Assembly: GCA_030683705.1 (NCBI GenBank)
Contig: JAUXPP010000142.1
Coordinates: 1-64,000 of the forward strand
Direction: 5' to 3'
Origin: Polaromonas sp.
Lineage (GTDB): Bacteria; Pseudomonadota; Gammaproteobacteria; Burkholderiales; Burkholderiaceae_C
DNA length: 64,000 nt
This document shows positions 7,984-32,282 of the stretch, one piece after another; positions within the stretch are counted from its first letter, which is position 1, and every line of letters starts with the position of its first letter. A program made the translations under genes and the position numbers. A model generated the notes under the pieces. It worked only from the letters and a program-made list of their open reading frames with translations. It did no database searches and was not told the origin of the DNA.

Positions 7984-8253
7984 TTACTCCTCTATTTCCT
8001 GGACACCGTGCTCGATGTCCAGATTGTTCATGTACCGGGCGTAGTACCAGATGATCAGGCAGTACACGACCAGCGAACCCTGTGCCCCCATCCAGAAACT
8101 GAAGGGCCAGCCAAAGAAATTGAAGTTCAGATCGCGTGCAAAGTAACCCACGACAAAGGTCACGACGAACCAGATCGCCAGCAGGACAGCTGTGATATTG
8201 AGGTTCTTCTGCCAATATCGTCGATGGTTTTCGGTCAGTTCCATGTTTCCCAT
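7984..8253 (-). CDS. DUF4212 symporter small subunit, copy 1
   Basis: Small two-helix membrane protein (89 aa) of the DUF4212 family, the partner subunit of VC_2705-type symporters. The sequence carries NHRRYWQKNLN, two hydrophobic helices separated by FFGWPFSFWMGAQGS, and an acidic C-terminus (DIEHGVQEIEE). GGAGG lies ten bases before the chosen ATG; an internal ATG nine bases on (MELTENH) would match copy 2 better at the N-terminus. It is followed almost immediately by the large subunit. Confidence 0.92.
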   Translation of the reverse strand: MGNMELTENHRRYWQKNLNITAVLLAIWFVVTFVVGYFARDLNFNFFGWPFSFWMGAQGSLVVYCLIIWYYARYMNNLDIEHGVQEIEE

Positions 8254-28490: not shown

Positions 28491-28583
28491 GTTTCCGGCC
28501 CGCAGCACGACGCCGATGCGGGCCACCCGGGCGGACACCGGCTCCAGCTTTTTTTCTCCGCCGCCCCCGTCCTCATCACTCAA

Positions 28584-28615
28584 ACGAGAATAATTCGCAT
28601 TTGTTGCGTTAAGAT
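28584..28615 (+). promoter_or_regulatory. Fur-box promoter of the siderophore receptor
   Basis: GAGAATAATTCGCATTT resembles a Fur box; TAAGAT at 28610-28615 is the probable -10. About 105 bases from here to the start codon are repeated, with changes, before the PepSY operon (from 30889). Confidence 0.65.
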
Positions 28616-28684
28616 GCCGCACCCGCGAGCCGACATGCCCAGCCATGTGAAGCCAGCCAGCAACCTGACTGGACCCTGCCTCAC

Positions 28685-30871
28685 ATGTCTACCCCATCCC
28701 GTTTCCTTGCATCAACAACCCCTTTGTCCCCCGTCAGCCGGGCGTCATCAGCTACTAAACTAATAGCAAAATTCAGCCTCACCCCGCTCGCGCTGTGTGC
28801 CGCGCAACTGGTCGGTGCCCAGGTCCTGCCGGACATCACCATACGCGCGGATACCGAACAGGGCTACTCCCCGGCCAGCAGCAGCAGCGCCACCAAAAGC
28901 AGCGCGCCGCTGCGCGATATTCCGCAAACCGTCAACGTGGTCCCCGGCCAGCTGCTGCGCGACCAGGCGGCGCGCTCCATGGAAGATGCGCTGCGCAACG
29001 TGCCCGGCGTGGCGGCCAGCCATGGCGATGGCCAGCGCGACCAGGTGATGATCCGCGGCTTCACGGCGATTGCCGACCAGTTTTCCGACGGCCTGCGCGA
29101 TGACGCCCTGTACTTCCGCGACCTGTCCAACGTCGAGCGCGTCGAGGTGCTCAAGGGCCCTTCTGCCGTGCTGTACGGCCGGGGTTCCTCGGGCGGCCTG
29201 ATCAACCGCATCACCAAAAAACCGAAATTCGGCGAAACCTCGGGCGAGGCCGCGCTGATCCTGGGCAGCAACCAGCTCAGGCGCGTGGAAGCCGACGTGA
29301 ACCTGCCGCTGGGTGAAGCCGCGGCCTTCCGCCTGAACGCGGCGCGCGAGGACTCCGGCAGCTACCGCGACCAGCAATTCGTGGACCGCTACAGCTTTGC
29401 GCCGTCGCTGGCGCTCAAATTCAGCAGCCAGACGTCGCTGTTGCTGCAATACACCAGGGCGCGCGACCAGCGTGTGACGGACTTCGGCATCCCGGCACTC
29501 AACGGCCGCCCGGTGGATGTGCCCGCCGGCACCTACTACGGCTCGGGCAATGCCCGGCGCGACGACACCAGCACCAGCCGGGTCGACACCTACACCGCCA
29601 CCCTGAACCACAGCTTCAACGATGTGTTGAGCGTGCGCAACACCACGCGCTACTACAGCTACGAGCTGGACCGTTACAACACCCTGCCCAGCGGCACAAC
29701 CGACCCGGTGGCGCTGACCATCGGGCTGACCCGCAGCGCCGTCTTCCGCGACGAATCCGGCTGGTTCAACCAGACCGATGTCACCTACAAAAACACGCTG
29801 GGCGGCCTCAAGCAGGAATGGCTGTTCGGCCTGGAAATGGGCCAGCAGAAGCGCCGCTCCGAATCGATCTCGGCCGGCAACGTGGCGCGCGTGTCCATCT
29901 TCAACCCGGGCCTGGTGGCGGTACCGGCATTCAGCGCAGCCAACCTGGCTGCCGACAGCGCCATCCCCAACCACACCACCCAGGATGTGCTGGGGGTGTA
30001 CCTGCAGGACCAGGTCACGCTGGCGAAAAACTGGAAGGTGCTGGCAGGCATACGCTACGACGAGTTCAAGCAGTCCACCACCTTCGAGCGCAAGCTCGCG
30101 CCGCTGGCCCGCACCGACCGCAGCTTCAGCCCGCGCGCCGGCCTGGTGTGGCAGCCCACCGAGGCGCAGTCGCATTACCTCTCGTACAGCCGCTCGTTCC
30201 AGCCCTCGGCCGAGACCTTCGCCCTGGCCGGCAGCAATGTGGGCAACGAGCCGGAAATCACCCGCAACGTCGAGATCGGCAGCAAGCTCGGTTTCCTGGA
30301 CGGCGCGCTCAGCGTCACGGCCGCCCTGTTCAACTTGCAGCGCAGCAACATCAAGAACACCGACCCGGCCAACCCCAGCCAGCAGATCAACGTGGGCACG
30401 CAGCGCACCAACGGGCTGGAACTCACGGCCAGCGGCCGCCTGCCGGGCCGCTGGGACGTGAGCGCGGGTTACGCCTACCTGGACGGCAAAATGGTGGAGT
30501 CCGTGGCACGCGTCAGCTCGCTGCAGTTGCCGGTCGTTTCGGTGCCGTCGCTGGGCAAGGTGCCGGCGCTGACGCCACGCCACTCGGCCTCGTTCTGGGC
30601 CATGAAAGACCTGGGCAAGGGCTTCAGCCTGGGTGGCGGCCTCAACTACGTGGGCGAACGTTTCGCTTCGCTGACCAACCTCGTCGTCCTGCCGGCTTAC
30701 CTGACCGGTGACCTCGCCGGCAGCTACCGGACCGGCCGCTACGAATTCGGCGTGAACATCAAAAACGTCACCGACAAAAAATACATCGTCTCCAGCCACG
30801 GCAGCAACGACAACCTGATTCTGCCGGGCGCGCCGCGTGAGTTGCAGCTGAGCATGCGCGTCAGATTCTGA
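28685..30871 (+). CDS. TonB-dependent siderophore receptor
   Basis: Outer-membrane gated channel for ferric siderophores (TIGR01783-type, closest in style to catecholate receptors such as Fiu). The 728-aa protein has a long signal region, a plug domain (SAPLRDIPQTVNVVPGQLLRDQ; VERVEVLKGPSAVLYGRGSSGGLINRITKKP) and a 22-strand barrel ending in aromatic F (SMRVRF). Within the signal region, SATKLIAKF is encoded by a copy of the dispersed palindromic element. Energised by the TonB-ExbBD system encoded downstream. Confidence 0.93.
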   Translation: MSTPSRFLASTTPLSPVSRASSATKLIAKFSLTPLALCAAQLVGAQVLPDITIRADTEQGYSPASSSSATKSSAPLRDIPQTVNVVPGQLLRDQAARSMEDALRNVPGVAASHGDGQRDQVMIRGFTAIADQFSDGLRDDALYFRDLSNVERVEVLKGPSAVLYGRGSSGGLINRITKKPKFGETSGEAALILGSNQLRRVEADVNLPLGEAAAFRLNAAREDSGSYRDQQFVDRYSFAPSLALKFSSQTSLLLQYTRARDQRVTDFGIPALNGRPVDVPAGTYYGSGNARRDDTSTSRVDTYTATLNHSFNDVLSVRNTTRYYSYELDRYNTLPSGTTDPVALTIGLTRSAVFRDESGWFNQTDVTYKNTLGGLKQEWLFGLEMGQQKRRSESISAGNVARVSIFNPGLVAVPAFSAANLAADSAIPNHTTQDVLGVYLQDQVTLAKNWKVLAGIRYDEFKQSTTFERKLAPLARTDRSFSPRAGLVWQPTEAQSHYLSYSRSFQPSAETFALAGSNVGNEPEITRNVEIGSKLGFLDGALSVTAALFNLQRSNIKNTDPANPSQQINVGTQRTNGLELTASGRLPGRWDVSAGYAYLDGKMVESVARVSSLQLPVVSVPSLGKVPALTPRHSASFWAMKDLGKGFSLGGGLNYVGERFASLTNLVVLPAYLTGDLAGSYRTGRYEFGVNIKNVTDKKYIVSSHGSNDNLILPGAPRELQLSMRVRF
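28750..28770. repeat. Dispersed palindromic element, copy 4 (inside siderophore receptor)
   Basis: AGCTACTAAACTAATAGCAAA, in frame within the signal region of the receptor gene; a short, somewhat diverged core. Confidence 0.5.
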
Positions 30872-30872
30872 T

Positions 30873-30891
30873 GAGGGAAAGGATTTCCCTC
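30873..30891 (+). terminator. Hairpin after the siderophore receptor
   Basis: GAGGGAAA/TTTCCCTC stem two bases after the stop; it lacks a T-run, so it may only weaken read-through into the PepSY operon. Confidence 0.4.
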
Positions 30892-30894
30892 AAA

Positions 30895-30924
30895 CGCGAA
30901 TAATTCTCATTATTGCGTTAAGAT
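30895..30924 (+). promoter_or_regulatory. Fur-box promoter of the PepSY operon
   Basis: GCGAATAATTCTCATTATTGCG resembles a Fur box and TAAGAT (30919-30924) the -10. It is the second copy of the promoter and leader at 28578-28690. Confidence 0.65.
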
Positions 30925-31021
30925 ACCGCACCCGCCAGCCGACGCCTTTGCCGCGTGAAGCCAGCCAGCAACCTTGCCTGAGCCTGTGTTTCACCATGCC
31001 TGCCTTTTTTCCCGCTTCACA

Positions 31022-31081
31022 GCCAAAAGCGTCTCCAGCCCCCATCTATCCTGCGTGGGCAGCTAGCAAATTTGTAGCAAA
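31022..31081. repeat. Dispersed palindromic element, copy 5
   Basis: Long form: GTCTCCAGCCC block, CTGCGTGGGCAGCTAG and TTTGTAGCAAA, in the leader of the PepSY operon. Confidence 0.55.
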
Positions 31082-31133
31082 CCGCGTCTTCAGCCGACCC
31101 GGCAGTTGCAGTGCGCAGCTGCGGACTTGAGCC

Positions 31134-32282
31134 ATGTTGAGCGCCACCCACATCCGCCGCTGGTCCTGGGTCCACAAATGGTCCAGCCTGGTCTGTACCG
31201 TTTTCATGCTGCTGCTGTGTATCACCGGCCTGCCGCTGATCTTCCACCATGAAATCGGCCACCTGCTGGGCACCGAGGTCGAGGCGCCGGCCATGCCCGC
31301 CAACACGCCGCGCGCCAGCCTGGACCGCGTGATCGCCACGGCGAAAGCACTGCATCCGGACCGTGTGGTGCAGTTCGTGTCGCAGCCGGAGGACGATGAC
31401 GGCCTGTGGTTCGTCACGCTGACGCCGACGCCCGAACCCACCGACGACTTCAAGTCGGTCGCCGTCGATGCGCGCACCGCCGCCGTGCTGGCCCAGCCGA
31501 AGTTCGACGAAGGCTTCATGTATGTGATGTTCAAGCTGCATGTGGACCTGTTCGCCGGCCTGCCCGGCAAACTCTTCCTCGGCTTCATGGGCCTGCTGAT
31601 GCTGGTGGCGATTGTGTCGGGCGTGGTGCTGTATGCGCCCTTCATGCGCAAGCTCGATTTCGGCACGGTGCGGCGCGCGCGCCAGCCGCGCCTGAAGTGG
31701 CTGGACCTGCACAACCTGCTGGGCATCGTGACCCTGGTCTGGGCCTTCACCGTGGGTGCCACCGGCATGATCAACACCTGGGCCGACCTGATCGTCAAGT
31801 ACTGGCAGCACGACCAGCTCAGCACGCTGCTGGCGCCTTACCAGGGCCAGCCGCCGGTGCCGCCGGCCGAACGCGGCTCGCTGCAGGCCGCGCTGGACAG
31901 CGCGCTGGCCGCCGCGCCCGGCAACAAGCTGTCTTTCATTGCCTTTCCAGGCACGGCGTTTTCCAGCCCGCACCACAACACGGTGTTCCTGCGCGGCAAC
32001 ACCGCGCTGACCTCGCGCCTGCTGACACCGGTGCTGGTCGATGCGCGCAGCGGTGCAATCACGGCAAAGCCCGACCTGCCCTGGTACCTGACCGCGCTGC
32101 TGGTGTCGCAACCGCTGCACTTCGGCGACTACGGCGGCCTGCCGATGCAAATCCTCTGGGCCCTGCTCGACATCGCCACCATCATCGTGCTGGGCAGCGG
32201 CCTCTATTTGTGGGTCAAGCGCGGCCAGCCGCAAAGCCTGGCGCAGGAAGCCGGCGCCGCCTTGCCGGGGGCCGCGCGATGA
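31134..32282 (+). CDS. PepSY-associated transmembrane protein 1
   Basis: Inner-membrane protein (382 aa) of the PepSY-TM family, which includes siderophore-linked iron reductases such as FoxB. I see four membrane helices: SSLVCTVFMLLLCITGLPLIF, FLGFMGLLMLVAIVSGVVLYAP, LLGIVTLVWAFTVGATGM and a C-terminal ILWALLDIATIIVLGSGLYLWV, with conserved histidines (HKW, LHVDLF, LHNLLG) that could carry haem. Start of a five-gene overlapping operon under a Fur-type promoter; probable role in reducing ferric siderophore in the periplasm. Confidence 0.85.
   Translation: MLSATHIRRWSWVHKWSSLVCTVFMLLLCITGLPLIFHHEIGHLLGTEVEAPAMPANTPRASLDRVIATAKALHPDRVVQFVSQPEDDDGLWFVTLTPTPEPTDDFKSVAVDARTAAVLAQPKFDEGFMYVMFKLHVDLFAGLPGKLFLGFMGLLMLVAIVSGVVLYAPFMRKLDFGTVRRARQPRLKWLDLHNLLGIVTLVWAFTVGATGMINTWADLIVKYWQHDQLSTLLAPYQGQPPVPPAERGSLQAALDSALAAAPGNKLSFIAFPGTAFSSPHHNTVFLRGNTALTSRLLTPVLVDARSGAITAKPDLPWYLTALLVSQPLHFGDYGGLPMQILWALLDIATIIVLGSGLYLWVKRGQPQSLAQEAGAALPGAAR

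Follow-up and report, generated by a model that had tools for sequence, protein, structure and literature searches.

Iron receptors are textbook targets of Fur. In Caulobacter, the sRNA ChvR engages the chvT mRNA at one site at the 5′ end and at another before the start codon (PMC6237742), and RusT, an iron-starvation sRNA of the same genus, acts post-transcriptionally on several TonB receptor mRNAs (PMC11005374). In the btuB cobalamin riboswitch and the chuA FourU element, as outlined in published summaries, alternative structures govern access to the start codon of receptor mRNAs. Here, we describe a promoter and RNA leader of ~105 bases that occurs twice, as copies A and B, in the iron-uptake locus of a Polaromonas sp. 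As in chvT, the downstream gene encodes a TonB receptor, and a leader containing a weak stem-loop has one candidate site at its very 5′ end and another close to the start codon (PMC6237742). Unlike in chvT, these sites are direct repeats of a single motif, which is common to many receptors across a betaproteobacterial family (the GTDB family of Polaromonas). RusT belongs to a different bacterial class, and no common twin motif was seen in the description of its targets (PMC11005374). The btuB and chuA elements differ in that our leader has no Rfam match and that its conserved part consists of two short unpaired repeats. The Fur-regulated receptor operons hiuABC and the Burkholderia hydroxamate system, as represented by their abstracts, have PiuC or PepSY partners; here, too, a receptor is accompanied by PepSY in the window or by PiuC-like genes in other genera. 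Those abstracts mention no such leader.

The analysed stretch of 64,000 nt is referred to as the window. Pfam and homology searches gave the gene order AhpC-like, AhpF-like, bacterioferritin (Ferritin domain, PF00210), leader A, TonB receptor, leader B, PepSY_TM, DUF3649, a DUF3325-containing frame, FeoA and FeoB, where the first two names are ones we presume from sequence and domains. The features of both copies are as follows.

28580–28601, + strand: Fur-like box of copy A; best 19-nt match to GATAATGATAATCATTATC, 11/19
28610–28615, + strand: −10-like hexamer TAAGAT of copy A; from sequence, putative promoter judged by conservation
28625–28631, + strand: repeat 1 of copy A, GCGAGCC, differing at a single base from GCCAGCC; from alignments
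28633–28648, + strand: hairpin P1 of copy A, ACATG (28633–28637) with CATGT (28644–28648); from fold and pair counts
28647–28684, + strand: helix P2 of copy A, GTGAAGC (28647–28653) with GCCTCAC (28678–28684) plus AUG; from folds and permutation test
28651–28664, + strand: repeat 2 core AGCCAGCCAGCAAC of copy A; AGCCAGCC..CAA invariant in 25 aligned members
28685–30871, + strand: TonB-dependent siderophore receptor behind leader A, 728 aa; PF00593 (E 4e-58), PF07715 (E 9e-25)
30890–30914, + strand: Fur-like box of copy B; 13/19 consensus match
30919–30924, + strand: −10-like hexamer TAAGAT of copy B; from sequence and alignment
30934–30940, + strand: repeat 1 of copy B, GCCAGCC; from alignments
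30942–30956, + strand: hairpin P1 of copy B, ACGC (30942–30945) with GCGT (30953–30956); from fold and pair counts
30955–30994, + strand: helix P2 of copy B, GTGAAGC (30955–30961) with GTTTCAC (30988–30994); from folds
30959–30972, + strand: repeat 2 core AGCCAGCCAGCAAC of copy B; from alignments
30996–31130, + strand: 44-codon remnant ORF matching the receptor signal-peptide region; ends 3 nt before PepSY
31134–32282, + strand: PepSY_TM protein, now behind orphan leader B; PF03929 (E 1e-65)

A first-pass annotation had pointed to a duplicate of about 105 bases with a Fur-type box and a −10 in both copies. A Fur-like box and a −10 were found in each copy, and the duplication is real: 28575–28684 and 30885–30994 align with 85% identity across 92 nt (E 2e-20), and the local alignment score is 111, whereas none of 2000 shuffles scored above 26. 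The interval originally given, 28578–31000, covers both copies plus the intervening gene, the copies proper lying at ~28580–28684 (A) and ~30890–30995 (B). Identity is not confined to the Fur box and −10. It extends ~50 nt past the −10, and since the identical blocks CCGCACCCGC and GTGAAGCCAGCCAGCAACCT lie downstream of it, the claim of a shared leader stands. Similarity drops off at the start codons, except for a short palindrome, AGCTA..TAGCA. The palindrome GCTA-N9-TAGC occurs eight times in the window (0.2 expected); two copies (28751–28767 and 31062–31078) take the same position in the receptor signal-peptide region behind leaders A and B, and six lie at other sites. The two leaders (28575–28684 and 30885–30994) also share spacer bases, GCACCCG, that the orthologous copies in the relative G004 lack, so that some gene conversion between them is possible.

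BLAST of leader A (28575–28684) against the whole genome, a MAG of 92% completeness and 5% contamination, returned itself and 30886–30974 (query 2–92) and no further copies. An exact leader 19-mer is present only at A and B in 4.1 Mb, and a third site elsewhere carries three mismatches to it. The genome's remaining TonB receptors, with which a comparison had been suggested at first, all lack the leader; receptors in other genera have it.

The box matches suggest that both leaders are putatively Fur-controlled. Scores of at least 11/19, as in copy A, arise in ~6% of random 80-mers from the window, and the 13/19 of copy B was reached by 9 of 3000; homologous positions in relatives mostly match the Fur consensus at 10–14/19. 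A promoter scan found no sigma-70 consensus pair at copy A, and the promoter assigned to A, with its presumed transcription start, is for this reason based on conservation.

Family-wide, the element is laid out as Fur-like box, −10, GCCAGCC, hairpin P1, AGCCAGCC, and helix P2, in which the bases ahead of repeat 2 pair with those right before the start codon. A covariance model built from 14 leaders and used to search other genera retrieved divergent members with a Fur-like promoter, mostly ahead of a receptor, the weaker matches being chance. The core GCCAGCC...AGCCAGCCrrCAA is small (~20 nt) and is kept in 25 members from nine genera, whose receptors are merely ~25–31% identical between the most distant clades. 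Between the repeats lie 13 to 36 nt. Many leaders have no Shine-Dalgarno sequence; in some divergent members a Shine-Dalgarno-like sequence is present and rrCAA is missing. Conservation of the core extends to every position and does not follow codons. A uORF or leader-peptide attenuator was rejected upon inspection of the alignments, as no start codon, frame or stop is kept across members.

Given that arm sequences differ by genus, each genus's 5′ arm could be paired with its own 3′ arm and with those of other genera. For P2, cognate pairing reached −10.5 kcal/mol versus −6.8 kcal/mol across genera (genus-permutation test, p 1e-5), and the difference recurred in 15 further genus/locus groups that had played no part in framing the hypothesis (p = 0.003). 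Cognate pairing of trimmed P1 segments gave p 0.004–0.025, depending on the trim. P1 segments, listed by hand and in some cases noticed as hairpins beforehand, also fold better than shuffles over 24 genera combined (Stouffer Z 5.5, p ~1e-8). Two P1 pairs show changes on both sides, and the P1 stems of A and B themselves differ by a paired change. In the Polaromonas–Rhodoferax alignment by itself the 5′ arm of P2 is invariant, hence compensatory changes are absent there, and support for P2 is drawn from the wider set. Minimum-energy folds of this genome's copy B and of copy B in G056 do not exceed shuffled sequences in stability (z −0.1). Across the wider set the helices are kept via compensatory change, as expected of a structured cis-regulatory RNA, which strongly supports the early suggestion that the leader matters as RNA.

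In many members the 3′ arm of P1 overlaps the 5′ arm of P2; both helices cannot form fully together and hence compete. In copy A, the 5′ arm of P2 can be extended to CATGTGAAGC (28644–28653), of which 28644–28648 are common to P1, and the 3′ arm of P1 takes in the bases complementary to the AUG as well. In copy B the AUG has its first two bases free of pairing, so sequestration differs between the copies. No Rfam family scored above its gathering threshold at the leader, the window otherwise giving two tRNAs only; a match to istR at another locus (L079) fell below threshold. A search of the published literature found no description of the motif. The leader is thus apparently an undescribed structured RNA family ahead of iron-receptor genes. 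As far as its published description goes, Burkholderiales-1, a candidate RNA of unclear function from Burkholderiales that lacks an Rfam entry (Weinberg 2010, PMC2864571), may be the same element.

Across the family, the pattern CATT (a Fur half)–GCCAGCC–AGCCAGCC matched in 137 of 391 genomes, many matches being coding sequence and chance, and the reversed pattern in seven genomes among the matches listed. Among 27 loci fetched after visual selection for promoter-like sequence, ~20 lie ahead of a TonB receptor, identified visually by signal peptides and TonB-box-like starts; among 30 unselected loci, four precede a receptor and one a porin-like gene. The exact twin motif marks 7 of the 30 top-scoring receptor genes in ten genomes, partly chosen for having matches, and hence particular receptors rather than all. 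In other genera the leader is followed by a receptor and then by PiuC-like hydroxylase and ExbB/ExbD-like genes, as judged by eye from ORF starts. In g163 a porin-like gene is preceded by a similar leader. At four further loci (L208, L209, L171 and L172), of which two belong to a different family of the order, porin-like genes stand behind twin GCCAGCC leaders whose Fur match is weak or absent. In g104, a neighbouring PiuA-type receptor (L138 and L139, reverse strand, ~8000–8170) starts with TTG and has a twin-repeat leader of its own that is more divergent and contains a Shine-Dalgarno-like sequence. Outside the family, a search with GCCAGCCN{12,36}GCCAGCCRRCAAY gave Fur scores at background and mostly chance-like matches, some of which lie ahead of receptor-like or porin-like genes.

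The reading we lean towards takes the repeat for an mRNA leader that regulates, in cis, TonB receptor genes under Fur control and works as a switch together with a trans-acting factor. When iron is plentiful, Fur would repress transcription. Once the mRNA is made, P1 and P2 would compete for their shared bases: P2, which pairs right up to the start codon and in copy A takes in the AUG itself, would close translation, and formation of P1 would open it. Both unpaired repeats, the 5′-terminal GCCAGCC and the AGCCAGCC adjoining P2, would serve as docking sites for the trans-acting factor, which would tip the balance between the helices and is most likely an sRNA with GGCUGGCU loops. Copy A would control the intact receptor, and copy B PepSY, via the short remnant ORF. 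For such a dual-site sRNA model, ChvR–chvT appears to be the nearest worked example. In contrast to that pair, a partner sRNA was not found here: searching 81 genomes for GGCUGGCU or GGCTGGCT followed by a T-run yielded no clear conserved candidate. We propose more tentatively, as a possibility rather than an expectation, that the twin AGCCAGCC repeats, with the competing hairpin between them, constitute an undescribed RNA element through which one shared trans-acting regulator controls outer-membrane iron receptors, and some porins, post-transcriptionally and family-wide.

Mutually exclusive helices, one of them reaching the start-codon region, are also found in riboswitches and thermosensors, and the frequent lack of a Shine-Dalgarno sequence would suit a self-contained switch, in which the P1/P2 equilibrium senses a small molecule, a metal ion or temperature without a trans-acting RNA. 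We regard this as unlikely, given that the helices vary freely, that the core is so small, and that what is conserved are two short, identical, single-stranded repeats. Such a combination of conserved single strands and variable helices is less suggestive of a ligand pocket than of recognition through base-pairing or by a dimeric protein. Direct repeats on either side of a hairpin of variable sequence, in C-rich, A-containing single strands, could accordingly be bound by an RNA-binding protein, perhaps as a dimer, affecting translation or mRNA decay in place of an sRNA; no candidate protein was identified, and this seems rather improbable. The position next to a promoter and the direct repeats would also be compatible with an operator for a second transcription factor just 3′ of the Fur promoter. 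We give little credence to such a DNA-level element: the P1 inverted repeat stays paired as its sequence changes between genera, the arms of P2 change in step with the bases ahead of the start codon, and the distance between the repeats is variable.

The preferred reading, a leader that switches receptor translation, also includes an account of how copy B came to stand before PepSY. Three relatives (G004, G025 and G019) carry tandem receptors, ~31% identical, each preceded by its own leader, whereas our genome and G056 have one receptor and then a second leader before PepSY. The DNA of the remnant ORF aligns with that encoding the signal peptide of tandem receptor 1 in G004, including a run of 21 identical nt, and alignment scores of 49 (G004) and 47 (a Rhodoferax deletion) compare with maxima of 27 and 28 in 2000 shuffles. 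At the same place, Rhodoferax has an in-frame fusion of signal peptide to receptor C-terminus (GAQTLP-TYRF*) before PepSY, and in G038 an intact receptor C-terminus, SATYRF*, directly precedes PepSY on a contig that ends ahead of its leader. In G055 the first receptor is lost and its leader remains ~220 bp upstream of the second. Together, the G055, Rhodoferax and window cases indicate that the receptor body was lost and the leader retained more than once. At L138 (3371–3667) and the same place in L139 (reverse strand), a leader stands before a fragment of a receptor signal peptide that is joined to, or lies close to, a small membrane protein; here again a receptor was lost and its leader kept. 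Leaders also stand ahead of PepSY or DUF3649-like genes without a receptor in g164 and g176. G056 carries another TonB receptor between PepSY1 and the DUF3649 gene (L051, 3003–5063; 27% identical to receptor A), which the window does not have.

On balance, we consider it probable that an adjacent paralogous receptor gene lost its body by deletion and that copy B is what it left behind: promoter, leader and the beginning of the signal peptide. The first-pass annotation had envisaged that a whole promoter-leader was copied, placing two operons under the same control; the shared control of PepSY is retained in our account, as an inheritance from the receptor operon, since copy B is the 5′ end of the deleted receptor gene. 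That the promoter-leader alone was copied ahead of PepSY is scarcely plausible, the shared GCACCCG spacer being its one point in favour, as similarity at copy B runs beyond the promoter into a receptor signal-peptide remnant, a receptor occupies that place in relatives, and Rhodoferax preserves a deletion junction. Compared with G056, orphan leader B is 91% identical, the PepSY CDS 93% and the remnant ORF 65%; the leader is thus kept as the remnant decays, and appears to be retained by selection. Because the remnant ORF stops 3 nt before PepSY in our genome and overlaps the PepSY start in G056, it probably couples its translation to that of PepSY.

A conserved RNA leader before receptor genes suggests RNA-level control on top of the usual iron repressor. 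If true, such a layer atop Fur would account, in this large family of environmental bacteria, for the tuning of individual receptors out of many, and the leader element would be a precise handle for finding its regulator. It would also mean that a leader can outlast its receptor and take over an adjoining gene.
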